Below are positions 41,499 to 62,576 of a DNA stretch of 64,000 nt, piece by piece (position 1 is the first letter of the stretch; the number at the start of each line of letters is the position of its first letter). Below the pieces are notes generated by a model. The model was not told the origin of the DNA and searched no databases. It worked only from the letters and a program-made list of their open reading frames with translations. The DNA is taken from NCBI GenBank assembly GCA_037176885.1, contig JAWWNJ010000078.1, positions 1,174,686 through 1,238,685 on the forward strand, given 5' to 3'. A program made the position numbers and the translations under genes. This DNA is from Favolaschia claudopus (Eukaryota > Basidiomycota > Agaricomycetes > Agaricales > Mycenaceae).

Positions 41499-44400
41499 CT
41501 CCCCCTCAGCGAGTATTGCTGGACGAAGGCCGAGACGTGCAGTCGCGTGGCGGTGAACGTCGCGAGTAAGGCCTTTGGTGAAGATATCAGCGAGATTATC
41601 TCGCGATTCGACGCGGACAGGCGCGATGGACTTGGTTTGACGGCGTCGCGCAACGAATGGTACTTGATTTTGAAGTACTTGTTGCCTTGTGTCACCACAT
41701 TGGAGTTGCTCATGGTGGACAATCCACTGTTGGAGTCGACACGGAAATCCGTTGGGCGAGTGGGGGCAAAAACCGAGTTCACCGGGAAGTTGTCGGAACC
41801 AGACGACCTCGTTGGCGCAAGTGTAGGCGGCGAAATATTCAGCGGCACCTGTAGCGCCTCCAACAGCGGTTTGACGACGCGCCCACCAATGGAAACAGGA
41901 GTTCCCAATGAAAAGAGCGCCGCCCGAGACAGAGAAACCGTTTTCTTCGGGGTTATCGACGAAATTGGAGTCGGTGTAGCGTGGAAGAGGTCGGGTGAGA
42001 ATCCGGACCCGCCCAGGACGAGCTCGTAGTCCGAAGTACCACGGAGGTACTTGAAGATGTGCTGGAGGGCAATCCAATGCGGAAGGCTGGGGTTCTTCAT
42101 AAACTGTGAAGTCTGCTGAAGAGCACGAGCGATGTCAGGGCGTGTTTTAAGGAGATGCATGAGTGAACCGTTCGCTTCCGCGTAAGGAATACTCTGCATG
42201 TCGTCCCAATCCGATGAGCCGACTGCGGGGCAATCTTCACCGTCGAAGGGGTTTGGTTTTCATCGGCGTTGCACGCTTGTTAGCGTGCTCGAAGCGGTAG
42301 CGCTTGAGGATGGTGTGGATGTAACCCTGCTGGGAGAACGAAATGGTACGCAACTTGCGGTCGCGTCTCACTGTCATGCCCAAAAACTCCGAAATCTCCC
42401 CCTTGTCAGAGATCTGGAAGTGCTCGGTAAATTCGACCTGAACGCTGAGACGGCGGGCTTAGAGTTGCCAAAGAGAGCGAGGTCGTCGACATGGGCAGCC
42501 AGGATAACAGTTTTGTCCTTCCGGCGGCGAATAAAAACGCATGGGGTCACATACACAGATGGTGAAGCCGAGAGAGGTGAGAATGCGGACCAATGTGTCG
42601 TACCACAGTAGTCCGGCTTGGCGTAGGACCATAGAGACCCTTGAGGAGTCGCCAGATCCAACCTTCTTTGCCTGGATAGTTGATACCGGGCGGAGGACGG
42701 CCATAGATAAAGTCGTCGTCCTTGACAGGACTGTTTAGGAATGCTGACTTAACGTCGATTACGTGGATCTCCCAATCCAGCATCGCCGCAATCGTCGCTA
42801 TCCCGAGAACAGATTCGATGTGGACGGTAGGGGAGGAAGCATCGATAAAATCAATGCCGGGGCGTTGATGATTTCCGAGCGCAACAACCCGAGCGCGGTA
42901 GTCGCGAATGTGACCCGAGAGGGGGTCCTTCTTGTGAGCATACACCCATTGAGAACCTATGACCTTCTCGTTGCGCGGGTATGGGACGAGTTTAAACGTA
43001 CCCATGGCTATTAACTGGTTATGCTCGTACTCCATTGCCTGTTCCCATTCGTTGACATCTGGTGAGTTGATTGCCTGTTTATAGGTTGTAGGCAAATCAC
43101 CGGCCTGTAGAATGACCGGGAATGCCACTTCTTCCGGCTCGGAGTCCTCAGGTAACGGAGTGAGCGGGGAAGGTGGACTTGGAGGAGGTTGCTCAGCTCC
43201 AGCGGCGGCTTGGGCGGCGGCGGCGGCAGGTTGTGCGGCGGCGGCGGCAGCAGCAGCGGCGGCAGAGCGAGTGAGGAGAGGAGTAGAATGGTGGGAGCTC
43301 GAGGATTTCGGCGTTTTGGACGTGCAGGAGGGAGCTCGGGCTCGGGATGAGCAATGTCGGGGCGAGGAGCAGGACGGTCATCATCGAGGTCAGAGTCGAA
43401 AAGAGAAGGGGTAAATGAATCATGATCGTACGACTCTCCCCCTTTGGCGACGTAGACTTGAATAACTTGTCTCCCATTGTCAAGTCGTCAAACTTTACGT
43501 GTGGTGAATGTATCACCTTCCTCTGATGAGGGACGTAGACCTTGTAAGCATTCCGAACCTCGTCAACACCAACATAAATCCCAGGTAGCCCGGTCGCATC
43601 TATTTTCGAGTTGGGCGTATGGTCATAGACCCATGCCAAGCAACCGAACGGATGGAACTCGGCCCAATTCGACACTGGACCAGGCCAAACATCACACGGA
43701 GTAGCATCACCTAGAGGTTTCGTAGGCAGGCGCCATCGAATCCACTTTGAATACTGGACGGCTAGACCCCAGAAGGAGAGGGGCAGCCCAGCGTCGATGA
43801 GAAAAGTACGAGCGCGGCTAATAAGAGTATGCCATAGACGCTCGCTTCGCGCATTTTGCTGCGGGGTGTGTGCGGCCGTAAGAGTCCAGAGGATACCGTG
43901 CTCCTCCATAAACGAAATGAATTCCATTGTAAGGAACTCACCCCCGTTGTCCGTGTGGAACTCGATGAGGAGATAACCACCGGATTGGCGCTGTACAGCA
44001 GCCAGCCATGCCTTGAAGGCGGCAAATGCTTCGCTCTTCTTGGTCAAGAAGTACACCCACGAACCGCGGGTATGATCATCAAGAAAAGAAATCATGTACG
44101 ACTTCCCCGAACGTGTCTTGATTTTCGACTTGCCCCACAGATCACTATAGACACGGCGAAGAGGTTTATCAGCACGTGAATAAGAGGCAGGGAATGCAGC
44201 GCGGGTTAATTTACCACGCGCGCAAGCGTCGCAGACAGTAGAGGGCGTTAATCTCGGTTGTGGTAAGCTTCAGCACATGGTCATATTTACCGCTGCGAGC
44301 CAGCGAGCGAGTCAGCTGTTCGCTTGGGTGGCCAAAACGACGGTGGAATAGCATAAGCTTTTGCGAGGACGGTGACGGTGACGGCGAAGAGGTAGAAGCC

Positions 44401-45253
44401 GTAAAGGCAGAAACTCCGGGGTCGAGGTCCATGTGGTATAAGCGAGCACCGCGACGGGAGCCAGTGCATACAAGCGACTCTGAGCGCGCTAAATGGTTAA
44501 TGAAATTACCATTGTCCTTCTTCTCGAACACAAGCGTTCGGCAAAACCGGCACCGGGCCAGGAGGGGGAGGGGCAGGGTCCCCGGAAAGGCGTGACGGAC
44601 CTTTCTTCTTAGAGCGGATACGCTTACACATGAAACGCTTCCCAAGCGCAATTAGCGCTTCACCGATTTGCTGGTCAGTACCACGGATAGATACACGGCG
44701 CTCCAAGGGGGAAGCCTTATCAGTATAGGCTCGAAGTTGGCGCCGGAGATGTCGTGCGACTGATGAAGACCCTTACCACCACGGCCATTATGATATGCCC
44801 GACGACCGAGTCAGGCACCACAAGCGTACACGAGTAGCGGGACGGCGAGTGGTATGGCGGTGTGGCCGACAGCGATGATGGCAGGGGTAGGGGCTGGGGT
44901 TGAAGGTTCAGAGCCCCAGCGAGCGCCATCCCAGGAGAAGCGCCAGGCATGCCCTCGGGGAGTAGAGGCTGCAGTGTTCCCAAACTCAAGACGATCAAGA
45001 CGGTCGTGGACGCGCTGTAGTTCGCTTCGAAGGAGAGTGCAGTAGGAATAAAGGTCCTGAGGAACTGCGGGGGTTGCCATAGCAAGGAGGTGTAAGTTCG
45101 ATGGTAGGATGAGGGCAGAGTAGGAAGTAGGGTGGTCGGCTGGGGCTAGGAGAGTGCCAGAGTCAAATAGAAGGTTTGTTATGCTGTAAGGGGAGAAGGG
45201 CCCAGGAGCCAAGTCGATAACAAACCTGGGGATCAGAGATCCCCCAGCCATAG
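41499..45253 (-). pseudogene. Ty1/copia gag-pol, frameshifted and missing its 5' LTR
   Basis: Minus strand, right to left: leader and short gag (MATPAVPQDLYSYCTLLRSE), the GAG-pre-integrase block with HRRFGHPSEQLTRSL, integrase core (FLDDHTRGSWVYFLTKK, HTDNGGEF, HTPQQNARSERLW), reverse transcriptase (EWEQAMEYEHNQLIAMGTFK, GSQWVYAHKKDPLSG, RARVVALGNHQRPGIDF, IHVIDVKSAFLNSPVKDDDF, and AAHVDDLALFG as the YVDD box, with His in the first position), and an RNase H part. Protease and zinc knuckle are not visible between gag and integrase, and frames change repeatedly. The sequence to the right of the leader belongs to the KDZ segment, not to a second LTR. GC-rich codon repeats at 43195-43270 encode an Arg-rich linker. 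Confidence 0.88.
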
Positions 45254-45263
45254 CTGGGGAAAC

Positions 45264-45363
45264 GATACATCACATCGCTCTCAAGAGAAAACAGCCGTGA
45301 TGTATCATATACTCCTCGCCAGAGCGGCGCCGTGATATATTATTGAGAGCTTCTTCCATTTTC
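45264..45363 (+). repeat. Left terminal inverted repeat of the KDZ segment
   Basis: Starts GATACATCAC, then CTCTCAAGAG, then GTGATGTATCATAT, then GCC.GTGATA.AT. Each block occurs in the same order and spacing in the complement of 59825-59919, about 75-80 percent identical overall with long exact blocks. GTGATGTATCAC-like words appear three times per end, a likely array of transposase sites. Confidence 0.8.
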
Positions 45364-45897
45364 GTGCGTTTCGTACGTTTGCACGCGCTCCGCTCGTTGC
45401 TCGCTGTTGTACGGGATCGCGTGGCCTGTGCATCCCGCCCATCCCGCCTCGCCCAAACGGGCCGCTGGATATTCTTGATTCGAGAGCAAATTGGTATAGC
45501 GGCGGTGTTTAGATACATCTAGGAACACATAGTTCCTGTTCAAATGACTGTACGGCACTGTGATATCGAATTTGAGACCGTCGGCTTTTGGCAGGTGAGT
45601 TTGCTTACCTCTGTTAGAAATCAATGGTAGTGAAATGGGATCAGCGCGCGCGGCGGGCTGTTGGCGGGGCGCCCCGCCCCCCACCCTATATAAGAATTTG
45701 AGCACTCCTGCAGCTCTTTCTCGCACGCAGACATCCGTATGTTACTCCTGCTCGGTAGCATATTTTTTTTCTTCAACCCACCGCGATTCCGAATTTCTTC
45801 GCAATAATACTTCCTTGAATATCAGCATAGCTAGAATGTAATTAGAGACCAGATTGCCTTGGTACCTTCTTAGCAGCCACTCTGGAATTGTGAGTTT

Positions 45898-46362
45898 GCT
45901 TAGAGTCACTCCGGCAGCGGATTTGGATTTGGATTTGATGGGATTTGGAGCTGATGGGTGACGATCAGTCACCAATCAGTCACCGTTGCCAACTGATGAC
46001 GGGACTGTTCCCGCCAAACTGCCAGCGCATTGTCCTCGTCGGCATTTTCCCGCCATTCCCGCTCCATTTCCCGCCGTGCCTGCGCTGGCACTTAAGAGGT
46101 CTGCTACAGCAATAAAATTGGGCAGGCAACATATAGTAATCAAAGCACACCGTTCTCAAAAAGTGCGCCGTTCTGGAGGCAAGCAATGGGCTCAATGAAG
46201 GAGCTCGTCGTCGTCGCCGACGAGCAGGCGTGTTGCAAACACAACGGCGGCTAACGTCGGACATTCCGCGGACTACGTTACATACAGACATCAGTTCCAC
46301 CATCAAATCCAAATCCCATCAAATCCAGATCCTGCTCCGCTGCCGAGTAACCCTAAAAGCTT
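45898..46362. repeat. MITE-like inverted repeat inside the KDZ segment
   Basis: GGCAGCGGATTTGGATTTGG and GATTTGATGGGATTTGG at the left are mirrored by CCCATCAAATCC and CCGCTGCCGAG at the right, giving imperfect inverted ends of about 55 bp around 350 bp without a recognised gene. No clear target duplication. Confidence 0.45.
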
Positions 46363-46742
46363 GTACGGCGAGCGGCTTCAAAATACAAGTCCGAATTTCC
46401 ATTTTGGGCAGTTCACTCCAAGTCCACTCAGCAAAACTTCGTCTCATGCGCCAAGTTCCATTAACAGTAAGGAGATAATTAGTTTTAAGGACGCTAAACG
46501 CTAAAGGCCGGGGTAGTGTATCTATGAAGTAGGAAAGATATTCAAAGACAGAAAAACGACGATTAGAAAAACTATGAATACGACAGCAAGTATTACTATT
46601 AGCTGTTGTGATAGAGAAAACGCGCTGATCGAACGGACTAGCAAAGGTATGGGACGTGAACGATAAAAATACATTCTATCTACCTTCGAGCTCTCCTGTA
46701 CAGCGAATAAGTTGGTGTATCGCTTCCTTGAAACGATGAGCT

Positions 46743-49561
46743 TACTTTGACGGCTTCTTCGCCTGCTCATCCTCAGCGGCCTTGCGTTTCGTACCTTGTA
46801 GTTTGTGCAAGAGATCTTCGTCATGTACCTTCTGCGCTGCATTGAGATCGGCAGCGTCCCCCGCTCTGGGGCCCAGCGGAAAGCTCCCCCGTGTACTAGC
46901 ACGCATCCCGGTAAATGCATCTCCCTCCCATCAGGATAGAACATCTGCTTCGTCGCCGCCGCTCTCTTAGCTCTTGGAGGGGGCGGTACGACGAAGACCT
47001 CGCCCTCGCTCGCAGCGTTCGCTCGTGCCACGCGCTTCTTCCTCCCTGACTCAACTTCCGCCACGTTCTCCCGCATCGCCTTCTCGCGCCTCAACGCCTC
47101 GTTCCTGTTCTTCCGCTGCTCCGCCTCTTCACGGTGAATGCGCGCCGATTCAGCGCGTGCGCCGTCCGACATCCCATCCCCGCCCTGCACTGCTGCGTTG
47201 CGGGGCCGTCCGCGAATTCCACCACCTCGACCCCTTCCTCTTCCCCTGCCTCTCCCTCGAACACCTGCATGAGCTGCGTCAACCGCAGGGGCAGGTGCTA
47301 CGGGCGGCTCTTCGTCGTCGATGGGAACCACAGGAGTAACGATGTTCGAAGCGACGGGATTGAAGGGAGGAGTTGGTATGATGGGCGGATGGGGGGAAGC
47401 GGAAGCGGGAGGCTGGCCAGATACAAGAGGAGGAGGGGAAGTGTGGGCGGTAGATAAAATTGAAGGTGGCGAATTCGTTACTTTCGGCGACTTTCGCTCT
47501 CGCATTGGAGATGGAGGCTCGGAGAGCGGCTAGTTTTGCCGCAGCAGCGCCTGTTGACGGCGTAGCTGCAGGAATGACGGAGGATGCGGGTATATGGGAG
47601 AAGGACAAGACACCGGTGGTGTTCGGTGCTGCTGGCTTTGGAAATGGGAAAAAAGGGGGAGGACTGTGGCTTGAAGATTGAGTAACGTGAACTTGTGCTT
47701 CTACCCCCGGAGCAGCCGAAGCCCCACGATACGCAGGTCGCGCCACTGGGCGTTCTCGAATGCGGGCAGCAACGGGTTCCGGCAAATCATTGCCGGCAGC
47801 GTCAAACGAGGGAGGCTGAGGAATGAAGTCAGGCGTTCCGTCGCTCCAGGCATCGCCGAACGAGTGCCTAAAAGAGTAGGACGAGTCGTCATCGTCGTCA
47901 TGCATCGGCATGAGACCGTCGTGCATGGAGATGAGCCCGTCGTCGTGCAAGGCACCAGCATGGACGATAATGTCCTGGAGGGTCTGGTCGAAGTCGGGGG
48001 TATAGGGTAATCGTTGGCAGAGACGGGCTGTGGGGGTGTTGTGGGCGTAAGGCTCGGAGTGAGACCAGCAGGAGAAGGGGCGGAGGTAGTCGGTGTGGCG
48101 GGGGAGACCATGATATTTGTCGCGGGAGCATGTGCGTCGTTCGTAGAAGGAGAGTTGACAGTACTAGTGGCAGCCGGTTCAGACAAGGCAGCCGTCGAGA
48201 CAGTAATAGTCTCGGAAGCAGTCGAAGTCTTCTTTTGCTTGCGGCGAATGCGTTTTGGCGCCGGCGCTGGCGAGTCTTCGGGCTGTTCATTTTCGCTATC
48301 ACCCTCGTCACCATCCCTGGCGATGAGCTCAGGGAGACTTCTTGCATCGCGGACGTCGTGGGCTGAGAGAAATGGTCGTAAGTGCCCTGTGGGAACAAAC
48401 TCTGAGCCAAACTCACGGAAGGCGCGCTTCAGGAACTTGGCGAAATGGGCTTTGAGACTCTGCAATTCCGGGTATGAGGCAAGAAAGTCGGGCCCGCCGT
48501 CACCGATGGTACCATAGCAGATTCTGACGAAGTGAGTGTGAGTTTGTGTATCAATCGCCCTAACGTCAAACAACTTACGTCTTCATTGACAACGCGCCGG
48601 CACGACCAGGATCCGGACCACCGCTCACCACGAGCGTATACCACCCCGCTTCCTCTTCGATAGCTTTCACGACAGTCCCGACGACATCTGGAATCTGTTG
48701 AATTGCGCTATACATTTGTTAGCTCTTGACTTCCAAGCAACTCGATTCGACTTACAAATTAAGTTGTTCCGGCGTGCGCTCTTCGCTCACTGCGTCGTCC
48801 CATCCCTGCATGCGAATGGCGTTCCTCTCCTCCTTCTCACTCTCAACGTGCGCTTTCACCTCTGGAGTCTCGGTAGACAGCATGGCAATCGACGTCGTAC
48901 GCATCAAACTGAATCGCTGACTCGCATGTGCACGAATACGCGCAATCGGTCTCTGCCTCGATCCTAGCTTCCTCAACGGCGAGCTCATCCTCAGTAAGAA
49001 CTCTGGAAGATTGAGTGCTACCGCCATCAGCGGCCGCCGCCGCCGCTCGCTCGGCTTCTGCTTCCTCGTTCATCTGACCGTACCCTTTGTCCATCACCGC
49101 CGCCCGGATTTTCTTGCAGTAAAGTTTCTGGTAGATTTCGATCGAACGGTAAGGGCGGGGCTTCTTCTTTTACCCAGGATTTTGAACAGTCCCTTGCCAG
49201 CCTTTTTCTTGCCTGCCTTGGTCGCGCGTCGGAGCTGTGATATCGCATCCAGGTCTTCAATTGCTGATCCATGGGTAAGTGACGAGTTCGTGAGTCGTAA
49301 ATGAAGCACTTACGCCTTTCCTTTTGGCAGTGAGCGTGCCGATGTCCTTCTTTTGAGCTTCAGTTTGAGGCGGCGCGCCAGGGCCCGTTGGATTCCGAGT
49401 TTGCCCTCCACCGGAAAGCGGGAAAGGAAGCCGGAATTCAGCGTAGTCCAGAAGCGATTGAACGGAACGACGTGAGCATTTTTTCTTGCTTCGACATACG
49501 CCGGTAACATGCTGTTAAGGTATTCCAGCTCGAGAGGCGTAGTCCACGGTGGAGCGCCCAT
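46743..49561 (-). pseudogene. Agaricomycete lineage-specific Ser/Pro-rich protein, unknown function
   Basis: ATG 49561 begins MGAPPWTTPLELEYLNSMLP with AYVEARKNAHVVPFNRFW. Later exons read QLKTWMRYHSS, LYCKKIRAAVMDKGYGQMNE, TPEVKAHVESEKEERNAIRM, QQIPDVVGTVVKAIEEEAGW, YTLVVSGGPDPGRAGALSMK, then ICYGTIGDGGPDFLASYPEL, FAKFLKRAFREFGSEFVPTG and a long Ser/Thr/Pro-rich region with a basic RGRGRGRGRG tract. The C-terminus appears to be LLHKLQGTKRKAAEDEQAKK and a stop at 46745-46743. This is a multicopy agaricomycete family often seen near transposons; no biochemical role is known to me. At least two frame breaks (about 49400 and 46860) lie in or next to homopolymer-rich stretches. Confidence 0.6.
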
Positions 49562-50120
49562 GATAAAATGAACAGGTAGGGAGGTGAAGTATTGTTTCGC
49601 TGTCGACGAGAGTAGAGGGAAAGTGTTAACTAGCAAGAAAGTGAAGGCTGCGTGTCGTCTCCTTCTCCAAAAATTGTGTTGGTTTGTCTTCTCCTTCCTT
49701 GTTTCGTTGTTCATTTGCTATTGCCTCTTACTCATCAATCTCAGTCTTTCGGCGCCGATGAAACGAGTCACGTACAGCAACCAAAATTTTGAAATTTGTT
49801 CCTTTGCCGAGAATTCGCGCTCGCTAGTCCTCTTCCGTCGGCCAGCACAACCGAACCATTCAAATCCCGACTTTCGCGGCTTCCTTGGCACGCTCCGGAT
49901 CTTCGCTCTTTGCGCATTGGCTATCCTTTTCGTTTTTCGTAAGATTTTTTCCCTTGATTTCTCGTACGATGTAAATAAATTTCTCCTTCTGTCAATTCCA
50001 GATCTCAATCTCAGTGGGGTGGTGTCAAAAAATCACTCATTCGTTCCCCAAATTTATCCACGCTAATGGTCAGCGTGTCACACTCTTTCTCCTCAACTTC
50101 CACTACTACCAGTCTTTTCC

Positions 50121-50812
50121 ATGCGTGTGTCTCAACCAGCGGCGACCCCGACCTCCAGCACTCCTCCCGATGCTATCCAGGAGCTCCACAGTGTCCTCAC
50201 GACTCTGAACGGACCTTGTTGTCAACACCACGAAAGTTCAGCGCTATGTATCCGCCGCTTTGGATGAAGTTTTAGTCAACAGCTCCAAAGTACAAAGAAA
50301 TGCGGTAGAGATTCAGCGTACGTACCTTTCCGTTCATCAAGTCCACCCACTTCTTCTAATTTGGCTCTCCCAGAACGTGTCTTGGCTGTCCACGATCGCC
50401 TCGAGAAAGAGCAAGCAATTGCTCAAGATCGTTCCTCTTCTCGTGAGTCAGATACAGATCCTTTCCACAAGTTTTATCCTACTACTTCTCATCCAGCTCT
50501 CTGGCGAAACGAGACGGCAGCTACACCCTCTGAAGTTGCGAAGATCCACAAGAAGGTCGCTGATGGATCTCGAACTTGGTGGGTTGTATATGTCGGGCGC
50601 GAGCCCGGCCTCTACACTACCTCGTGCGTGACAATTCAATTTGTTGACAACATATCTTCTCATTCTACTCTTCTCAGGGAGAAAGCGATGCTCAAATCAA
50701 AGGATGCCCAAACCAACAATACCGTCGCAAGGCCAGCAAGAAGGAGGCACTGAATTTCTACAAGGAGAAGTATGAGGCGGGTGAGGTTGAGAAATGGGTA
50801 GAAGTTTATTAG
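50121..50812 (+). CDS. Small gene with RNase H1 N-terminal (hybrid-binding-like) domain
   Basis: ATG 50121 starts MRVSQPAATPTSSTPPDAIQ. A helical part follows (VQRYVSAALDEVLVNSSKVQ), an intron at about 50320-50372, ERVLAVHDRLEKEQAIAQDR, then TWWVVYVGREPGLYTTS. After an intron (donor GTGACA, about 50629-50678) come SDAQIKGCPNQQYRRKASKK and EALNFYKEKYEAGEVEKWVE, then a stop. The YVGREPGLYT...G-CP--QYRR-ASK-EAL pattern is that of the N-terminal domain of RNase H1 and caulimovirus viroplasmin, which binds RNA:DNA hybrids in RNase H1. No catalytic RNase H domain follows. One frame change is needed near 50215. Confidence 0.6.
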
Positions 50813-51084
50813 CGGGTCAGTCGACGTTACAAGCCCTGTTGTTTTTGTCCGCAAAATCCCGAGCATGTCTGTTTTTTGTTTTGTTTGACCGTTTGATAAT
50901 AGTCTTGTGTCTTGTTCTCGGTTAGCGAGGTTCGTTCATGTAGATCCGGAACATCATGAACAATGAAGTGTTTCAACATACTTGATTAGCGTCTATTAAG
51001 TATACGGAAAATATTGAGACCGAAGACCGGTGCGAGCAAATTACTTATGTAAACGATGCACAAATGATTTAGAAATCCTCCTCG

Positions 51085-51754
51085 CTAGATAAATTTACGG
51101 TGGGTTCCGGCCGCCAGTAACCCAGAGTGCGAAAGGACAAACCTATTGTATTGCGGCGCTATACACTCCCAAGCTGCTTGATTTATTTTCGACTCCGAAT
51201 GTTTTGAAGGCTGGATTGCGGCATCAACGTGGGGGTGGGGGTATAGTGGATGACTTGAAGGTTCATCGCTGTAACTCCGTATCATGTCGTTGAGTTTGAA
51301 AATCGGGAATGTAACGTACCTGGTCGTAAGGAGGGTGCCGTGCAGTTTCGGCGCGTCCCATTGTCGGTGAGCCTTCTTCGAGCTGCGCTGATAAAGTAGC
51401 ACAGGCTTAGGTTGGACACACACTGGTGAGGGATGACATGACACGCACCGTCTAGCTGCCATTTGTTGTCGTTTCCTCTCCTTCACCTCTGGGTGTTGTT
51501 GGTAATATTCAGCCGTTGAAGTTCTCCATCGTATACGTTGAGCATGTATCGCAAAAGGCCGCCGCCTCCTGTTTTTCTCTGAGAGAGGCACGTCGGCGCT
51601 CGCGAGCTTTCAGAAGTTGTTCTCGGCTGGAGTGATATGAGTTCCGCCTTGAGTTAGAATGCAAGTAAATTGCGGACCTTGTGTTGAAATAGTCATTTCC
51701 AGGTGTGTCGTCGCCACAATCGAAACTAGGAGAACTTTGCTGGAGGGTTTGCAT
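51085..51754 (-). CDS. Small Arg/Glu/Gln-rich protein, three exons, unknown function
   Basis: From about 51754: SSREQLLKARERRRASLREK, then (after a one-base frame change near 51550) AIHAQRIRWRTSTAEYYQQH and PEVKERKRQQMAARR. A 65-nt intron leads to SSKKAHRQWDAPKLHGTLLT, and a second intron to SDEPSSHPLYPHPHVDAAIQ and a stop at 51085. Both introns are GT-AG and phase-consistent. Similar charged proteins with repeated Arg/Tyr helices recur in agaricomycete genomes. Function unknown. Confidence 0.45.
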
Positions 51755-52736
51755 AGTGAAGGAAGAAAGGAGGAAGAGGATTTACGTGTTGTATTGATTG
51801 TGGATCTGAAGTCGATTCAAACTTTAAATTTGGATTTGAACAAGCACCACCACACATTGCGAGGTAGCATATTGAATTTAGTTTTTGCGGATGAAAAGCA
51901 GGCGACAACGTCCAAGAACCAAAGAGAGAAACATAGCAAAATTCGTTCAAGGAGGTGAAATACGAAGTCAATCTTCGGATACAAAACTTTGCAATTGAAC
52001 TGTGGTTGACTTTCAGTCTTTCAATGTTTAATAGACTCTGCGGCAGCAAAGCTTCATATTTTAGATCCAAATAGCACCCAGTAGTATGGAAAGTCACCTG
52101 GGAAGGGCCAAAACAGATTCATCTGGTTGGTATTGTCGAAACAAGGCTCTAAACAGTGAACAGTTGATTTTTTTCAGAGGGATACGAGAATATTGAAACG
52201 ATGAGCAAAATACAAACGATTAATAGATGGAACCCTATTGAGCGCTATATCTTTCTGTTAATGTACGCCTGAGGGTCGGTATAAAGGAAATGGTCAGTTA
52301 CTCATAACTCCGAGAGGCTAATCACGCAGTCACATATCACAGTCACCTCTCGTGACTCGGGAAGTGGCTCGTTTGACCGTCCTCTACTGCACAAGCACAT
52401 CTTCGTTCAAGCACGCCAATGACCACCCTTGCATGTCTGCTGTGACTTCGACTGAATCTACTCGCTCTGTCTACCTCAAGTCGGCTCAAGAAACCGAGTA
52501 AGTACGTGTCCTTTCCGTTCTTTACTGCGACATCGTGCTTGAGTGGCAAAGCCAAGGGGCGGTTTGGGACGTGTTTCTCCCACCGTGTGCGATACGCTGG
52601 CGTGTACCACCGGTCCTACGGAGGTACATGGTGGTAGCAGCCGTTTCCGACGCTTCTTGGCTCGAGTCACTCGACTCTGTCTCGTTCTTCTCTTCAAAGC
52701 CAGCGACCTACTTGTCTGACGCGTTTACATGTAGGA
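51755..52736. other. Intergenic, no gene seen
   Basis: Spacer between the small minus-strand gene and the TET/JBP gene. A possible 5' UTR intron of the latter ends in TTTACATGTAG at about 52734. Nothing else recognised. Confidence 0.4.
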
Positions 52737-54509
52737 ATGGGGCGCCTAACGCGTAGTGGGGTTCAATGGTCCCCATTTGAGTTTGATATCCCGGCTCCGA
52801 CTGCTCCCCACACTCTTATCGACATTGTGGAAACCGGTGTCTCGCTTTCACCTTGCATCTTGAATGCTGTACTGAACGCCGACATTCACGCTGCCGCCGC
52901 CGACGCCAGGGTGGATTCAGACCTGATTATCCTTGACAACCTTGAAGATCCAGATGGTGAATGGGAGGACGAGGACCCTGTCCTGTCTCGTGCCCAATCC
53001 CCACTTTCTCGATCTCCGAGCCCCACTCACTCCACTCTCTCGCTCCCCTTCACCATCCGCTACCTCTCTGGCTGCCGAATGCGCTCCTCCGATCTCTACA
53101 CCCCTGTCTGCTTCACCGTCTTCCCCCATTCCCTCTGAATTGCCTAGCTATAGGCGGCGTCAAGCTCAAGGTCACAAAGCCCGCCGACAAAAAACACCGT
53201 GCGACTACGTCTGAGGCAACACCTTTTGGTCCGCTGCCGCAGAAGCGACACTCCCAACGGTACCGAGAAGAACACCCATACAAGACCGCTTTCCGTGCCG
53301 TCCACATCCGCGCATCTGGAAGTGGGAGTTGGACCGGTCCTCGAGCGTCATCTCATAAGAAGCTTGGCATTGCTGAACGCATCCGTCGCGTCAAAGAACT
53401 TCTTGACAACGGATGCAGACTCGTTGAATGGGATGGCAGGTCTGCTATCTTTGACAGCTCCCTTACATTGCATGCTGACCATTAATCTAAAGGGGCCCAA
53501 ACTCATTGTCGATGCCGAGGGGCGCATTGTCGCTATACTCCTGGGACGACCGGAAGGGGAGGATATGGGATGAGGTCATTCGGGAAATGGAGAGATTTTT
53601 AGAGGCCGTGCGTAAACGAGGAATTAACCGCGGTGTTTTGAGGCCGAAAGATATGAGGCATCGCAGAGGTGTTTTCTATGTACTAAGGGGCGGAATTACT
53701 AAAGGACCTGGTCAAAAGGTAGTCGTTCATTTCGTGCGCAAAAGTCAATAATAATAATTCGCGCTGCTCAGAAACCGGGTAATCTTGCGCATTCGAAGCC
53801 TCGAAGGCAGCTTGTACATAACATCACCTCAAACATTCACATCAGCCGGATCGCTGGCTTTCAATCTAGTTTGTCTTATTTCATTTTCTCTGTTTTGCTT
53901 CCGTGACATCGTGGAATTAGGTGGGTTTGCTCGCTATGCGCCCAAATTATATGAATATTATTTCAACACACTGCGTGGGCTCTACCACAGACAACCTGAG
54001 CTAGAGCAGCTCTTCCCAAACTCGATCTTCCCAACTGCTAGCTTCAATCTCGGTCCCGACGTCGTCACGCCAGAACATCTTGACATGCTGAACCTTCCTC
54101 ACGGCATGTGCGCCATAACATCCGGGGGTAAATTCGACCATAAGCGCGGTGGACCACATTTTCATTAAACTAACTGAATGCTCTCTGCGAGTTTCCGTCA
54201 GGATCGACAATTTTGCTTCTCTCCGGATCATGCGACCACGGAAATACCCCGATCTCCAAGGGCGAGACTCGGTATTCCATGACCCAGTACGCCGCTGGGG
54301 CTCTTTCTCGGTGGGCAGCTTACGGCTAGTAGAGCACCAAGGCTCTGTTAGCGCAGCCTGGTGGTGACGCGTTGAAACGCGAGGCCGACGGGGAGCCGGG
54401 TGAGCGCGCTGCGCGGGCAATGGAGCTATTGTCCAAAATATCCGAACTCGACGAAGATCGCGAGGCAGTTTTTGCAAGGTTGTCTTCAAACGTAGGAAAT
54501 GTGTTGTAA
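52737..54509 (+). pseudogene. TET/JBP-family 2-oxoglutarate/Fe(II) dioxygenase
   Basis: The family oxidises 5-methylcytosine or thymine in DNA in the nucleus. Starting MGRLTRSGVQWSPFEFDI and a Ser/Pro-rich linker, the sequence gives KLIVDAEGRIVAILLGRPEG, DEVIREMERFLEAVRKRG, KDMRHRRGVFYVLRGGITKG, an intron, KKPGNLAHSK, a second intron (about 53869-53920), YAPKLYEYYFNTLRGLYHRQ, NSIFPTASFNLGPDVVTPEH, then LDMLNLPHGMCAITSGGKFD. The Fe-binding H-x-D is HLD in TPEHLD. The distal His lies in SGSCDHGNTPIS and the 2-oxoglutarate Arg in KGETRYSMTQY. The C-terminus is ALKREADGEPGERAARAMEL and a stop at 54509. Frame changes at about 53195, 53567, 54150 and 54330 break it, yet all key residues remain. I know closely similar agaricomycete proteins and assign the superfamily with good confidence; substrate is unknown. 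Confidence 0.75.
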
Positions 54510-54579
54510 CTACAAATGAATGGCTTTCTCTGTTCACACATTTTCTTTCAAGTCTGATTCATCCTCGAGTTGATTTTCA

Positions 54580-55234
54580 ATGCCCAAGGTCAAGCGTGAA
54601 GGTAACCTCCAATTTCATTCAATCTTCACATCCCTCAATGCCCTTGTATAGATGACGAAGATTCTCTGGGGACTATTGCAACCAATCTCCCCAAATCCCA
54701 ACACGAATTGACCCGAATTCGGCGGGAGCGCATCGACGCACGCTGCCGTGCGTATTATGAAGAGTGGAGGAAAAACTCGACCTCCTCGCCCTCAGCCTCC
54801 CAAGATTCGGATTGTATACAAGCGCGGCCGACGATTACCTCGTCAGGCACTACACAACCGAAGACGACCTTTACCTCGATGATGCTCGCCCCAACGAAAT
54901 CAGTAACCCGTCGCTCGATTACACCTGTTCTTCCTGTCTAAATGCAAAATCTCACCCTGTTCGGTGCGTCTATTTCTTCGTCTATTTTCCTCTTCTCAAT
55001 TTCTATAGAATGTCGTGTGGCCATAGCGCCTGTTACGTCTGTGTCCGTATTTTGGTGGAAACAGATTGGGGTTGTCCTCATTGTGGCAAGATCATCACAC
55101 AGAAGCCAAAGCCGAACCTTGAGGAGGAGAGGGCAATCGAGATGCTACTACCAGGCTGGGATATGAGCCGGGTGAGCTACAGTTGGCATGGCATAGAATT
55201 TCCTTGGGCGTCGTATGCACATAAAGCGATTTAA
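54580..55234 (+). CDS. RING-type zinc-finger protein
   Basis: Exon 1 is 54580-54601, exon 2 54652-54963, exon 3 55009-55234. Begins MPKVKREDDEDSLGTIATNL and an Arg-rich helix. The RING reads CSSC (C1, C2), then MSCGHSACYVC with C3, the His and the next Cys pair, and GCPHC (last pair), across the second intron, followed by KPKPNLEEERAIEMLLPGWD. The order C-x2-C...C-x-H-x2-C-x2-C...C-x2-C fits a RING, so an E3 ubiquitin ligase role is possible. One frame change near 54765 (GAAGAGTGGAGG) separates the N-terminal helix from the rest. It lies 70 bp after the TET/JBP stop and 600 bp before the KDZ gene. Confidence 0.65.
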
Positions 55235-55835
55235 CTTCCTTTGAGTTGAAAATATTATTCGCTATCACAATCGGGCGCGCAAGTACAGTAAGGAGGAAGG
55301 CATATAACTGTAACCGGAGATGTATGGACAATACGCTTCGCCCCTCTGGAGATGGATGTTTCGATGGGAAGGAAAGGTGGCCTGAATTTCGATGGAGAGT
55401 TGCTGCAGTGACTTGACACGAGTCAAATCAACCGTTCTGAATACAATTTTAGACGATGAAGAGAGCGGAACAAATACTCAAGCCTACCGAATAGCAACAT
55501 TTGTGAAGGGGGGCTTCGCCACTTCCTCATCGTTGAGCAACGGTGGGACTTCGTCTTCATTCTCGGCTTCAATCTCAAACTCTGGTTTTACCGCAGGAAA
55601 ATAGGATGGTGGGAGTGATGTGTGGAAGAGAACAAAATAAAGACTATGGATATACAATATCAGCTCCTGGATAGTCACTGAGCGCAGAGTACCCTTACCT
55701 CGACTCAGCCGTCATGATCGTGAAAGCGAGAAAGTGACTGAATTTCGATCGGCCGAAACACCGAAACATGTTACGGCACTACACGTTGATGACTCCGAGT
55801 CCCTCCTCCAACCCTCCCTCCGGTCCTGGTTGCTC
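55235..55835. other. Spacer before the KDZ gene
   Basis: No gene recognised. A CT-rich section at 55760-55830 leads into the KDZ start codon. Confidence 0.4.
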
Positions 55836-58800
55836 ATGCCCACCAAGCGCAACCACGCCCTTTACATTGAAGACGACGAAATTAACGACGGGAGCGACAG
55901 CGACGACGACGAGCCTGGATATGTGCCTCGAGCAAATGCGAGCCGTATTCACTATGTCCCAGACGAATCCACATCTTTTTCTACGAACGGCAACCGACGA
56001 ACCACGACCTCGAACGTTGCAACCCCTGCATCTCCTTCAAAGAAGACTAGAATCTCTTTGAATCAACCTGAACCTGTGCAGCCGTCACTACAAGACTGGG
56101 ATGCCGACTTCTCAGAATTTGACGCGGAGTACGGGCCTGGAATGCAGCGAGCACCCCCGGAGTCTGAGAGAGTCGGTGCGTCAGCTATTCATTTTGTTGA
56201 TACTTTTGCTCATTCAATGTTCTATCTTCTCTCAGGATGATCCTCATGGGCAATGGGCACGACTCGATCGTGAAGCGTTTTTGGATGAACTACTACGACT
56301 GGACGGACGAGGCGACTTCATGGAGCAGGCAAGCTGTTCTGGGCTCAACTGCAATACTGCGGATCCCATGTTCCGCTGCTCCGACTGTCTTCATCCTTGT
56401 CTCTATTGTAAAGACTGTGTGAAGGAGTTACATCTCCGCACACCATTCCATCATATCGAGGTGAGAGAGATACCTTTCCGTCACGACATTCCGTGCTGAA
56501 TACATGACCTATACAGATGTGGAATGGGACATCGTTCCAGCGATGTTCTCTCAAATCTCTAGGCGTCCGGATCCAGCTAGGTCATCCACCTGGGGAGCTG
56601 TGTGGAAACCCTTCAAAGGCAGCTGGGGACGATTTCGTCATCATAACGAGCCAGACCATCGACGAAGTAGGTCTGGACTTCTGTGATTGTAGCTGCGCTG
56701 CTGCCCCGCCAATCCAACTCCTCCGAATGCGGTTGTATCCGGCCACCAGCACAAACCCGCGTTCTGCGGCAACGTTCTCAGCTTGCGCCGGTTTGCGCAT
56801 ATGACACTCGAGTCGAAGTGCTCGCCCTACGAGTTCTATAATAGTCTAGCTAGGGAGACTAATAACACAGGCCTCGAGCCGTCCCGAGTAAGCAACCTTC
56901 AAAAATGATGAGTTTGAGTGCTGAGAATTCGGCAGGATCGTTACGACGAGTTTACACGAATGACGCGGCAATGGCAGCACCTGCTGTTGCTCAAGCGTGC
57001 TGGGCGAGGACATGACCCCAGCGACAATCGCGTCGAGTCGACGAAGGCCGGAGAGCTGGCTCTCCTTTGCCCCGCCTGTCCGCACCCAGGGAAGAATCTT
57101 CCGGTTGGCTGGGAGAACGCGCCACAGCACAAAGCGTGAGTCGGGTTTAATTGCGCTGAATCCAAATTGATGCTCTCAAGGTTTTTATACGCCTTATTTT
57201 CTCGCCATCGACGCCAATTTTCGTTTGAAACGCAAAGATGTGTCATCAGAAACTAAAGATCCAGGTCTTGTCCGAGGCTGGGGTTTCTACGGTGAGGTGA
57301 CCAGATATATGCAGCATCTGGCGGCGAATTGGGATGAGCCACAAGAGGTACGAGCCTTCTATCAAAGCCGCTATTGATTTCTCATATTCGTACTACAGAG
57401 AAGCACTTGCGTGGCCCATGACGCCGTCGATAAGCCGGATAGGGAGTCGCTGGGTACCGCGTCGTCTGGAATAGGTACAGTCGACTGCGCACGTCACAAC
57501 ATGAAGCGCCCAAATGGTGTCGGGGATCTACAACGGGGCGAGAGGTAAGCAAGATACATGTCGCCTTATCTTTCCCATAATAAAAGACTCACCTGCGACA
57601 GGTATCTCAATATGGACTATATGTTCTTCATGAGCCTCCTCGGGTGCATGCTGGGGCTATTGTTTGTCTCCTACGACATCGCATGTCAATGGTCCAAGAA
57701 ATTCTGGAAGCGTATGGAGATCTTTCCGCCCAATGCCCAATTCACACCCGAGGAGAAACGGGTCGTGTTTCTCGTGCCCAAATTCCACCTTCCCGCCCAC
57801 ATCGAGTCCTGTAATATATCATATTCTTTCAATCTCACTCGGTTCGTTGGACGCACCGATGGCGAAGCCCCCGAGCGCGGGTGGTCCGACATCAATCGAC
57901 TCGCCAGTAGCACCAGCGTATCCGGCCCCGGCGCCCGACGCGATACTCTTGAGGTCCATATGCAATATTGGAATTGGAAGAAGATCGTGAGGCTAGGTAA
58001 GCTAATTTATTAAGTATTGCACTCGCACGAGATCTGAGTTTTATGCAGGCCATACACTACTCCAACGCATCAAGAAATACGTACCGCTCATGCTAGAGAC
58101 TCGAGCAGCATGGGTGGATGTGGAGGCCTCTTTCCCGTACTCCGTTATTGCGCAGTGGACTGCGATGGCCGAAGCATGGGAAGCCGACTCGACAAAACCC
58201 AATCCCTTCGCCACCACGATACGGCGCGATGATCTCAAGGACGTCCGTCGCAGATTAGCTGTTGTCGCATCCAGAGATATCAATAGCTTACGGGTTCGTG
58301 GAGATATGCACGAGACGGAGATGTTGTCGATGGGGCTGCAGCTCGAAGATCAGCAGTGAGTTACTGCGTCCCCGTCCCCCGTTGTGAGAGCTGTTGGCTA
58401 ACGATTGCCCAGGCGAATCTTTGCGCGGAATCTCAAGCACGTTGGAGCCCATGAGACCGTTGACCAAGGCACGAAGCGAATCGAGCGAGAGACGAAGCTC
58501 CGCCGCAAAATTGACGCATGGATGGCCGTACAGCAGCTTTTCATCCCGGAAGTTGCTGTGCTGCGGGATCGCGAGAACACCGAGCGCAAGCGGATATCTG
58601 CTACGCAGGCTCTACCAGGCATCCGCGCAGATCAAATGAAGCTGTGGCTTCCCTCTGCTATTGGCACTCGTGCATCCTGCGACGAGTCTCTCCGAGACTA
58701 CGAGTACCAACTTCGGAAGGGGCAAGCGGCGGGGGCGTTGGAGGAGATGAGAAATCAGCTGCTCCTACGTACCCACGAGTATCGGTACCCGGGATCGCAT

Positions 58801-59596
58801 TGAGGGAGTCAGAGCGAAGACACGTTCGGCGACGAGAGCGAAGGAGATTGACGAACGCATTGTTACGGACGCCGCAGACGAATACCGCGCCGCCCACGCC
58901 GCCCTCGTTTCCCTAGGCGCCTTACTCAAACGATCAGAATGGCAGAAAGACTTCAAGCCTTTGAGGCAAGAAGACATACGTGGGCGACCTAGCGCAGTTT
59001 TCGGTGACGACGAACGACGGGGCGGGGGTTGGCAAAGGAAAGAAGGCAAGAGCAGACCCTGTCAATGAACCATGGCGGGCGCAGCAGCGAACCGAGGCTA
59101 AGATGCCCATGTCGTGGATATGGCTCTCGGAGGGCTCCACGGGCGATGAGAAGGACGTTGTACACAACGAAGGTGAGCTGAATCGCTCGCATTTGCAGGC
59201 AGATACTTATCAAGACCTATAGCTCTACGAATCGAATGGGCGAAGACACGCGCAAAAGCGATGCGCTACGCGGAGGAGGTGGATTTACTGGAAGAAGAGA
59301 TGCGACGTGTTCTTCAGTACCTCGCCTGGCGCACGTCGTGGTGGAAGTCGTTGGTGGGGCTGCGAGCAGACAAGCAGGGCATAGAGGTAGAGGAGGGTCA
59401 TGCCGCCTATGCTCACAAGCAGGCTTCATACATGGAAGGCATTCGCGCTCGTTTTGAAGCACAGTGGGGTGGTGTTGGGATGCTCTTGGACCAGGCTCGC
59501 ACATTATACGCGAGCATGAGCGCGGATGACGGTGATGATGAGGAAGGCGCGACCATGGCGGAAGAAGCTCCTGGTGGCGGCTGGCTCTCGGAATGA
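55836..59596 (+). pseudogene. KDZ (Kyakuja-Dileera-Zisupton) transposase with CxC2 cysteine cluster
   Basis: Ten exons fit: 55836-56171, 56236-56460, 56517-56887, 56936-57135, 57181-57347, 57399-57544, 57602-57996, 58049-58355, 58413-59172 and 59223-59596. An acidic N-terminus is followed by the CxC2 cluster (CSGLNCNTADPMFRCSDC, CLYCKDC, LHLRTPFHHIEMWNGTSF, CGNPSKAAGDDFVIITS). The transposase core follows: GLEPSRDRYDEFTRMTRQW, CPACPHPGKNLPVGWENAP, STCVAHDAVDKP, GIGTVDCARHNMKRPNGVGD, ERYLNMDYMFFMSLL, SYDIACQWSKKFW, VPKFHLPAHIESC, GRTDGEAPERGWSDINRLAS and GPGARRDTLEVHMQYWNWKK. The DDE-like acidic residues sit in TVDCARHN, SYDIACQW and GRTDGEAPERG. The tail has the WWKSLVGLRADKQGIEVEEG block. 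Frame breaks at about 56783 (a base missing), 57200 (extra T), 58790 (extra C) and 59030 leave no intact product as read. The donor of intron 1 is non-canonical in phase. Confidence 0.88.
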
Positions 59597-59824
59597 TATC
59601 TTAGACACAGAGAATTGCTAGATTTGCGCTGATTGTCGAGTACAAGTCCTGTATCTTGTCGATAGTGTGCTCGACAAAATTTCCAATTCGGTACATCCAT
59701 ATTCCCATTTTGGTATATTTATAAGCCCGCCACCAACGGTTTTGTCAAATACTACCATACATCTTCAACGCTGTGGACGACAACGAGCTCGGTCAGTATA
59801 CAACGCCCAGCAAAAGGCAACTAA

Positions 59825-59919
59825 AACGGTAAAAGTTCTCTGTGATGTATCACGGCGGCGTTCGAGCGTGAGCATATGATACATCACCGCGGTCCTCTCT
59901 TGAGAGGAGGTGATGTATC
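59825..59919 (-). repeat. Right terminal inverted repeat of the KDZ segment
   Basis: Ends GTGATGTATC at 59919. Read on minus it gives GATACATCAC, CTCTCAAGAG, GTGATGTATCATAT and GCCGTGATACATCAC, matching the left repeat block by block. It starts 230 bp after the KDZ stop codon. Confidence 0.8.
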
Positions 59920-60099
59920 ACTCTGCCAGTTAGTACTGGACCCCCAGTGAACTACTTATATACAAGAGGTGATGTAAGATATGACATAAGTGAGCACACA
60001 GCATGATGTCTTCGAGACAGAGAACTTCTGCCCAAGTCAGAAGATGTCATAGCTGTGGAATCCCCTGACAGTGGCGAAGCAAACCTCAGTCGAAATTTA
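59920..60099. other. Spacer between the KDZ segment and the LINE
   Basis: No coding sequence. The first bases (ACTCTGCC) do not repeat the sequence left of the KDZ segment, so no target duplication is visible. Confidence 0.4.
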
Positions 60100-62576
60100 A
60101 ATTTTAGGCTGAATTGTCCTGAAGAAATCAGAAGTGAAAGTTGAATAAAGAGAATATACAGGTAATACTAGCATTGCGATGGATTTGCCTCTTGATGCGG
60201 GTTTGCCCGTCAAACCAGTCAAAAACGGCACCCCCCCAAGGTTCCCCAGTTTCACCAATCCTGGCGGCGTTCTACACGGCGGAACTGCTGGAAATGGAGA
60301 AATTGGGCACACAGCGGTAAACCGATTACCTTTACCGGACAACCCTTCTGACACAACCCTTTCCATGTACGTCGACGACGGACGGAACCTGTCGGATTTG
60401 CTGGAGACCAACAACGAATTTCTGGCCAAGGCCTGGATACTCAGCGACCGGTGCCTAGAGAAAAAAGGCCTCACAACGGATGACGACAAACGGGAACTCC
60501 AAACCTTCTGGCTCGACGGCAAACGAAACGAATCAAAGACATTCGCCTCCCCTCGATACGACTGCGGAACCGCGATGGTTCGTTCACCACAGTCACGCCT
60601 TCCCCAACGGTAAAATGGCTGGGGGTCTACCTCGACTCCGCTCTCAACTTCAACCACCATGTCCGCACACTAACGGCGAGGGCGGAGAACAAGGTCAACG
60701 GCCTTTCCATGTTGTCCAACACAGTGAAAGGCCTCTCCTAAGTACACCTTCGGCACCTCTACAAAGCATGCGTAATCCCCCACCATGACTTACGCCAGCG
60801 CAGTATGGTGGACCGGGAAGAAAGACCACCTAAAACGCGTCGAACGAATCCAACCGCAAAGCTCTGCGACTCATATGTGCAGCTTCCGAACCTCTCCAAT
60901 TGTCGCACTGGAAATTGAGGCATCGATCCCCCCCATTCCGACTGGCCCGATGAAGCGAACCGCCGCACGGCACTGAGGTTCAACAAGCTAAGTTCACACA
61001 ACCCGGTTATCGAGCGGCTAAACGATGGATGGAGACAGGGCGCTAGTCCGACCGTCCCTCCACCCATCCCCGTGCGCCCACCAAACTCGATAAGCCAGGT
61101 GAATCTCAAGAAGACCACACAACTCGAGCGGCTATCAAAACTCACCAGCCCCAACAACGAACGAACTCTCCCCTTCCTCAACGCCCCATGGGAACGGACT
61201 GCAAGCACATTCGGAGGACGCCTGCGAATCTCCGGCACAGCGGGGGTGAAAAAGGACGAGGCAGCAAAAGCGCACAAGGAAAAGATACGTACCTTCTCAT
61301 CTTCTCCTGAACACTTAATGTGTACTCGGACGGCTCCATGCGTCTAATACACCGTGTTCGTCGATATGTGATCTACCATGAGAATAACGAAGTCGCTGCC
61401 TCTAGCATTGGCTTGGGCAGCCACGCGGAGGTGTACGACGGAGAGCTGACGGGTCTCCTCTTCGGGGCTGCGAAGGCTTTCAAACTTGCGGAGGAAGACC
61501 CCCGGATCACTCACATACATTTATTTGCGGACAACACATCCGCTATTACGACGATTTTCTCACCAAAACCCCGCGCAGGCCAGCTCCTAGCCTTCAAATT
61601 CCACCAGCTCGCGTGTTCCTTCCTTGACCCTAACCCAGCGAACGAGATCGAAATTGCGTGGTCTCCAGGTCACGAGGACATTAAAGGAAACGACCGCGCC
61701 GACGACCTCGCCAAACGAGGTGCCGAACTCCGAACCGACGCGCCAGGCACCCTGTCCAACGCCCTGCGAAAGTCAAAAGAGAAAACAGCCCGCACCTGGA
61801 AAAAGGAATGGAAGATTCGCCCCGAAGACGGGACGCTATGCCAGCGCCAACCGCTTAGCCCCGTCGCTGAAACCCACCCCACACTTCAAGATGCTCAGCC
61901 GTGAGGTTTTTGGAAGGGTGACGCAATGCAGAATAGGACACGGATACATAGGCGAGTACTATGAAAAGTTTCGTCCCCTCCGAGAACATTGACTGCCCTT
62001 GCGGAGAGCGGATACAGACTCGCGAGCACATACTTACGCGACTGCTCACGCTAACGACGACCATCGCCATCTGCTGCGGGAGGCCTCGAGGGACCTGTCC
62101 CTGCCCGAAATACTGGGTACACGGAAAGGCATCGAAGCCTTGGCCAAATTCCTCGAAGAATCCGGCGCTTTTCACCAAAACCGGGCGACCGTACGCTAAG
62201 GCGGAGCTCCCCGTGTTCGAAGGCGAACCCGACCCGTGGCTGTCGGACGACGAGGACGACGGCGGGTAGGCGCAATGCCCGCAAGATGACGCCCCCAGGA
62301 CAGAAGCTCCCCGATATTCATTTCCTTCCCCTTCCGACACCCGCGCGCCCTTGTGGCCCGGCTCCATGTTTCTTTTCTTTCTCTGTACTATTACATTATG
62401 CTCTATGGCCTATGCTTTCATGCATCCGCCGCTATACCCGTAAATTCACATTACTACATTACACTCCGAGACCATACTCTACCACCTACGGACGATCCCC
62501 CTCTAGGGCTACTCTTCATTATTTATTGCCCTTGTGGCACCGCGTCTTATCTTTTAAAAAAAAAAAAAAAAAAAAA
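60100..62576 (+). pseudogene. 5'-truncated LINE (RT and RNase H part) with poly(A) tail
   Basis: Starts within the reverse transcriptase: PQGSPVSPILAAFYTAELLE, then SMYVDDGRNLSDLLETNNEF (the YVDD box), KWLGVYLDSALNFNHHVRTL, GLSMLSNTVKGLS, and an RNase H domain with VYSDGSM, EVYDGELTGLLFGA, HLFADNTSAI and WSPGHEDIKGNDRADDLAKR (its acidic residues and His present). The C-terminus reads SREVFGRVTQCRIGHGYIGE and a CPCGERIQTREHI finger. Frames change many times. About 300 bp of 3' UTR leads to 21 A residues at 62556-62576. The missing 5' end and the A tail are typical of target-primed insertion. Confidence 0.88.

Follow-up and report, generated by a model that had tools for sequence, protein, structure and literature searches.

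A 14.7-kb KDZ transposon with inverted terminal repeats, a TET/JBP-type dioxygenase gene and short non-coding relatives in Favolaschia claudopus

The 64,000-nucleotide stretch analysed here, referred to as the window (Favolaschia claudopus contig JAWWNJ010000078.1, positions 1,174,686 to 1,238,685), contains a transposon of 14,694 bp with CAG...CTG termini (45245-59938), bordered by imperfect inverted repeats and a 7-bp target site duplication, and carrying genes for a KDZ transposase, a TET/JBP-type dioxygenase and several companion proteins (Table 1). The bounded mobile unit with a KDZ gene and a multi-gene cargo proposed in a first-pass annotation of this sequence is thus borne out, and some of its genes recur beside KDZ or TET genes elsewhere in the genome. 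TET-carrying Kyakuja elements with 7-bp duplications have already been published; the element described here differs from them in its terminal inverted repeats (TIRs), its short relatives and its companion genes.

Table 1. Features of the transposon and its target site (positions in the window; a dot marks features without strand).
Feature	Position	Strand	Basis and remarks
Left target site duplication GATCCCC	45238..45244	.	Flank matches stop at 45244; contiguous in the empty site
Left end, CAGCCATAGCTGGGG...	45245..45344	+	11-bp sites at 19(-) and 53(+), degenerate one at 88
Nested repeat of ~456 bp with ~58-bp inverted ends, in the left arm	45898..46354	.	Repeat finding and genome search
gene1, encoding a helical and in part disordered protein (P0121, 787 aa)	46742..49560	-	Limits by eye; frame broken in the window
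RNase H1 N-terminal (PF01693)-like protein gene	50068..50812	+	Limits by eye, start approximate
Gene for a small basic protein; a C257 copy has an open frame of 231 aa	51085..51754	-	Limits by eye
Gene of the TET/JBP dioxygenase P0043, with an H-x-D ... H ... R motif	52737..54509	+	Limits by eye
RING-like protein gene, C3HC4 spacing by eye	54580..55234	+	Limits by eye
KDZ transposase gene, CxC2 cluster and KDZ domain	55836..59596	+	Limits by eye, start approximate
Right end, R type, CAGTACTAACTGG... on the minus strand	59839..59938	-	11-bp sites at 19(-), 52(+) and 87(-)
Right target site duplication GACCCCC	59939..59945	.	6/7 identical to the left GATCCCC

An inverted repeat had been claimed for both ends and is indeed present, 78 of 99 columns matching when the ends are aligned as one repeat; the positions first assigned to it (45264 and 59919) fall about 19-20 bp short on each side. 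A repeat finder resolves its halves into two pairs of arms, 45278-45314/59870-59906 (86% complementary) and 45317-45365/59820-59868 (73%). The 100-bp ends align with a score of 80, whereas 2000 pairs of 100-bp segments taken at random from the window never scored above 26, and a 112-base query taken from the right end recovered the left end of the same element from the 264.6-Mb genome (E 8.3e-12). Among 511 candidate places matching the left flank, 40 were scored, and at the 36 lying outside the four copies of the insertion (see below) the match stops at 45244. A comparison with sequence lacking the insertion was made on copies of the interrupted element: in 4/4 retrieved copies the site is empty, GATCCCC continuing directly into AG(T/C)G(A/G)ACTACTTATATAC, as found in the right flank of the insertion in the window. 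The target duplication, the flank matches ending at 45244 and the empty site together therefore set the limits of the element.

The host of the insertion appears by eye to be a copia-like element with an integrase-like frame (window 43193-45244 and 59946-60150), of which 265 tested bases match the 36 other scored places at 98-99%. The repeat nested in the left arm of the transposon is 96-99% identical at other places in the genome (36 scored of 266 candidates) and is probably an abundant, young short inverted-repeat element; it dominated the DNA search with the whole element, which was rerun without it.

End pairs 14.6 kb apart were found by pattern search at three further places in the genome. 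These three full copies are 99.4-99.6% identical to the window across 17 kb, flanks included. A search for further copies with both repeats had been suggested in the first-pass annotation; those found have their flanks in common. Because the match to the window extends through the flanks, all four are taken to represent a single insertion, present several times through duplication of the region or redundancy of the assembly, and the other three were rejected as independent full-length copies. The genome yielded no other independent insertion of the full element, and the copies give no evidence of recent movement. The four copies differ by 111 gap events, 107 of them of a single base, and by 21 substitution columns over 17,053, a pattern that looks like assembly noise. 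A predominance of 1-bp indels is what such noise would produce, and it is probably the cause of many frame breaks. In the sequences as assembled, none of the four copies was seen with all frames open: the open frame of the TET exon measures 136, 173, 249 and 173 aa, and that of gene1 293, 496, 613 (in C310) and 265 aa, while one of the C257 copies combines the 249-aa TET frame with an unbroken CxC2 region. A frame break inside CxC2 is common to three of the four copies, that of the window among them; not every break is therefore specific to the window, and some may reflect real decay.

On one contig of 157 kb the insertion and its flanks occur twice, in opposite orientation and about 90 kb apart (C257:18311-32995 and 123892-138569), and the window itself reaches a contig end, an arrangement due either to a large inverted duplication or to an assembly fault. 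In two pairs of contigs (C28:8771/C255:8771, C81:1793/C244:1793) TET or KDZ matches fall at the same coordinate close to the contig start, which suggests shared contig ends, in subtelomeric or redundant sequence.

The transposase gene that had been assigned to the interval between the repeats is confirmed by its match to the KDZ transposase domain (PF18758, E 1.6e-39), the hallmark of the KDZ superfamily. Ahead of this domain lies a CxC2 cysteine cluster, which is unbroken in one of the C257 copies (L011; PF18803, E 3.6e-37) and interrupted by a frame break in the remaining three. The 7-bp target duplication is identical at six of seven positions in the window, with the empty site in 4/4 copies, and exact in five further elements described below (C67, C100, C133, C153 and C255), and 5'-CA..TG-3' termini are present both in the window element and in the C255 element (CAG...GTG). 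Target duplication, termini, TET gene and host group together would place the window element in the Kyakuja branch of KDZ.

Complete TET-carrying Kyakuja elements (Kyakuja-1_LB, Kyakuja-2_LB and relatives) have been described with 7-bp target duplications and CA..TG termini and without TIRs, the latter a description made from two Laccaria families (Kojima 2025, PMC12730594). The ends, presented as new in the first-pass annotation, are accordingly new in part: complete elements with such duplications and termini were known, and what is added are TIRs, said there to be absent. According to the same description, these elements resemble that of the window in joining a KDZ transposase to a TET/JBP gene, in target duplication and termini, and in belonging to Agaricomycetes; the window element departs from them in its imperfect TIRs of ~100 bp, a type of end also seen in C255, in its phased 11-bp sites and in its short non-coding relatives. 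Its RNaseH1-N-like, RING-like and gene1 companions were not met in the published description of TET-carrying Kyakuja, and the words RING and "additional gene" are absent from the main text of that paper (PMC12730594). As far as they are described, KDZ1-3 of Cryptococcus neoformans likewise have TIRs and a KDZ transposase with a cysteine cluster, but their TIRs measure 139-241 bp, their target duplications 4-8 bp, the cluster is CxC1 and not CxC2, and no TET gene is reported with them (PMC12810828). The KDZ proteins of Pleurotus ostreatus share the CxC2 cluster ahead of an intact KDZ domain, whereas ends, target duplications and TET genes find no description in the relevant part of that report (PMC7641404). 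Zisupton, as characterised by Kojima, belongs to the KDZ superfamily and has TIRs, and differs in its 8-bp target duplication (PMC12730594). In the portions of the literature consulted, we met no earlier report of a TIR-bearing, TET-carrying Kyakuja or of the gene set of the window.

The same two kinds of end also border four short elements, on contigs C100 (2,532 bp, with the duplication CTGTAGT), C133 (2,552 bp, CGAGAAT), C67 (2,461 bp, GTAATGC) and C153 (2,541 bp, GCTCTTC), all four duplications being exact. Only end pairs with equal 7-bp flanks were retained, and the limits given by blast agree to 2 bp. These elements are mutually 75-87% alike over long aligned stretches. Among unspliced frames none exceeds 191 aa, and nothing evident is encoded; no match to the large element was found past ~155 bp at the ends. 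The R-type ends, including the right end of the window element, are 86-98% alike and the L-type ends of the short elements 92-98%, compared with 71-79% between the two types. For 18 bases from its outer edge, the left end of the window element matches the C67 L-type end exactly, but its likeness to every other end, of either type, is 76-79% over 100 bp. Common to the ends is an 11-bp motif, GTGATRTATCA, at about positions 19 and 53, with an additional occurrence at 87 in R-type ends.

A separate KDZ element of 19,301 bp (C255:45566-64866) is bordered by an exact duplication, GAGATAC. Its right end was set where 7 bp equal the left duplication, and the inverted match independently begins ~10 bp inside. 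Its own inverted ends are identical at 77 of 105 columns (score 67 against a null maximum of 32), and the 11-bp sites in them are spaced as in the window element, with GTGATATATCA. A genome-wide scan with the terminal pattern returned 21 places, of which 16 were already known ends, against one for the reversed control; the left end of the C255 element fits this pattern with 2 mismatches and precedes an RNaseH1-N-like gene by 6.5 kb and the KDZ gene by 16 kb. Single places with 3 mismatches lie at C119:494875, C233:221265 and C265:34600. In the comparison of 30 KDZ loci from which the KDZ placement derives, the C255 transposase is the closest to that of the window (57%, L058). No TET match was found inside the C255 element. 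The 120 bp of its left end align poorly with the ends of the window element (scores 27 and 23), and as far as sequence goes its kinship with the window element rests on terminal motif and site spacing. A comparison of near-identical KDZ loci gave no distinguishable end. Repeats enclosing short elements that lack a KDZ gene, a case which the first-pass annotation had set against its own proposal, do therefore occur in the form of the four 2.5-kb elements, but these are better read as non-autonomous derivatives than as an unrelated family, given that inverted ends built on the same plan also border another KDZ element, that on C255.

Iyer et al. 2014 are said to have been the first to link TET/JBP genes with KDZ. 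An H-x-D ... H metal triad followed by a later R constitutes the motif of TET/JBP dioxygenases, and in the family of the window protein P0043 H321 and H357 are invariant in 20/20 sequences, and D323 and R368 are conserved in at least 90%. Relatives number 221, and the named ones among the 120 listed are all from Mycena except P0043 itself, of Favolaschia. The Pfam model Tet_JBP gave no match with P0043, and its matches to three relatives (24.4-26.6 bits) lie below the cut-off of 34.9; likewise, the sequence found no match in the PDB, either with one protein at E 0.001 or with a profile at E 0.1. An AlphaFold2 model of the Mycena relative P0001 (pLDDT 85) was more informative: its top 12 PDB matches in Foldseek are to CcTet of Coprinopsis cinerea (best E 7.9e-12), followed by CMD1 and NgTET1. 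CcTet (PDB 8jkk, 7w5p, 7vpn) is thus the nearest solved fold to the double-stranded beta-helix of the model, at 15-18% identity to the modelled relative and TM-scores of ~0.5; Kojima calls it a close relative of AG-type TET (PMC12730594). The TET/JBP enzyme announced for the cargo is therefore upheld by its conserved motif and by the predicted fold of a Mycena relative, but not by Pfam, and the window protein is supported as a TET/JBP-type dioxygenase at the level of this model. The nearest TET genes in the genome (C1:1834474-1836303 and C15:1337515-1339296) show 90% protein identity in the core exon, with DNA identities of 71% and 69%; no match to the rest of the window element was listed at these two loci (36 scored of 95 candidates).

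The companion genes are less well defined. The RNase H1-N-like protein reaches 19.7 bits with PF01693, whose cut-off is 21, and matched nothing in the PDB; the RING-like protein reaches 20.0 and 19.0 bits against Pfam cut-offs of 27 and 21. Both proteins had been listed in the cargo by the first-pass annotation, and the matches do exist, but with scores just under the Pfam cut-offs. Two further genes had been taken for lineage-specific families, a description that agrees with the small gene at 51 kb, found nowhere but in the four copies, and fails for gene1, which has 12 relatives in Mycena and was accordingly rejected as a species-private family. In this genome a 74-aa piece of gene1 used as query found nothing outside the four copies. 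The structural model of gene1 is mostly of low confidence (pLDDT 53) and predicts a mainly helical or disordered protein.

Whether the cargo is a recurrent set was approached through gene neighbourhoods. The KDZ count covers 149 of 202 KDZ matches, the second fragment of one C1 gene being omitted, and all TET (135/135) and RING (115/115) matches, with expected values taken as uniform over 264.6 Mb; duplicated loci (e.g. C6/C198, C22/C149) were counted separately throughout. Of these 149 KDZ matches, 36 have a TET gene within 10 kb (32 when the four copies are left aside; 1.5 expected) and 23 a RING-like gene within that distance (1.3 expected); in 19 cases, 15 of them at loci other than the four copies, the RING-like gene is encoded on the KDZ strand 2.0-2.9 kb upstream. 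Outside the four copies a single KDZ match, on C7, has both within 10 kb, in another arrangement, and 95/149 have neither. For the RNaseH1-N-like gene the count comprises 27 entries from 28 matches, two from the window copy being merged, and 23 more KDZ matches were added. Outside the four copies, 10 of its 23 loci have TET within 10 kb (0.23 expected), in eight cases downstream in the same orientation, at a distance of 4.3-4.9 kb, and 11/23 have KDZ within 20 kb (0.60 expected), 10 of them downstream on the same strand; at 8/23 neither is nearby. The window order of RNaseH1-N-like, TET and KDZ genes is repeated at C101, C10 and C48. The full gene combination was seen at no locus of this genome outside the four copies. 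In Mycena, 5 of the 12 gene1 relatives are on a contig that also bears a TET relative (among 120 listed of 221), contigs being equated by species and identical size in bp: 2,118,549; 97,487 (M. olivaceomarginata); 552,753; 1,094,851; and 684,202. We infer that gene1 and TET relatives are neighbours on these contigs.

The repeats might have another owner, namely an unrelated family of ~2.5 kb with its own transposase elsewhere in the genome, the KDZ region being a passenger captured between two ends. The four short elements, with the same ends, no sizeable open frame and no resemblance to the large element beyond those ends, are what this reading would lead one to expect, and the weak alignment of the C255 left end to those of the window also agrees with it. 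The C255 element, however, joins a KDZ gene to ends of the same plan: it fits the terminal pattern, its 11-bp sites are spaced alike, its two ends form an inverted repeat of their own and its 7-bp duplication is exact, which argues against an unrelated owner; moreover, 7-bp duplications and CA..TG termini are published features of Kyakuja, at least as summarised by Kojima (PMC12730594). We regard such an owner as quite improbable.

More room is left for doubt about the cargo. Apart from KDZ and TET, its genes may be host or other mobile genes trapped between the ends and decaying there without a role, as might be surmised from the confinement of gene1 (by its 74-aa query) and of the small gene to the four copies in this genome, from the absence of the full set at any other place and from the lack of a copy with all frames open. 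Such incidental capture nevertheless seems unlikely to us, given that the copy differences are mostly of the 1-bp kind that assembly noise would give, that RNaseH1-N-like and RING-like genes are met repeatedly at a constant distance from TET or KDZ, and that in Mycena some gene1 relatives are located on the contigs of TET relatives. Slightly less unlikely is a TET-like enzyme that acts chiefly on host genes or RNA and less on transposon DNA. Oxidised methylcytosines are reported in both DNA and RNA of Laccaria and Coprinopsis and tied there to gene expression as well as to transposon silencing (PMC8889193), and Kojima suggests that TET acts without target specificity (PMC12730594); against this stands the repeated physical linkage of TET and KDZ, which points to selection at the level of the element.

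We thus favour an interpretation in which the window element belongs to the Kyakuja branch and moves as DNA by a cut-and-paste mechanism. Its CxC2-KDZ protein would bind the phased 11-bp sites, ~34 bp apart, in two unequal ends, cut out the 14.7-kb unit at its CAG and CTG termini and insert it with a 7-bp duplication, and the same ends would allow it to mobilise the 2.5-kb non-coding relatives. The TET/JBP enzyme probably oxidises methylated bases on transposon DNA and could so relieve silencing by the host; escape from methylation by means of a transposon-borne TET has been suggested by Kojima in the discussion of these elements (2025, PMC12730594). The RNase H1-N-like, RING-like and gene1 proteins may be companions that aid expression or movement of the element. 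Taken as a whole, a Kyakuja KDZ transposon with these ends and a TET-based counter-silencing function appears to us the probable explanation, the function of the cargo being its weaker part.

With exact ends and short partners, TET-carrying Kyakuja elements become amenable to transposition assays, and it can be asked experimentally whether TET and its companion genes raise transposition or lower methylation. By their phased 11-bp sites, such elements may be traced in the genomes of other mushrooms, and the recurrent companion genes are candidate parts of transposon counter-defence besides TET. It is tempting, if rather speculative, to go further and to imagine that an RNase H1-N-like hybrid binder, a TET oxidase, a RING protein and gene1 make up an anti-silencing kit conserved in TIR-bearing Kyakuja elements across Mycenaceae, jointly stripping methylation and turning over silencing factors at their own copies and at those of their short derivatives. 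If this doubtful idea were true, the kit would represent a mobile, multi-protein epigenetic counter-defence.
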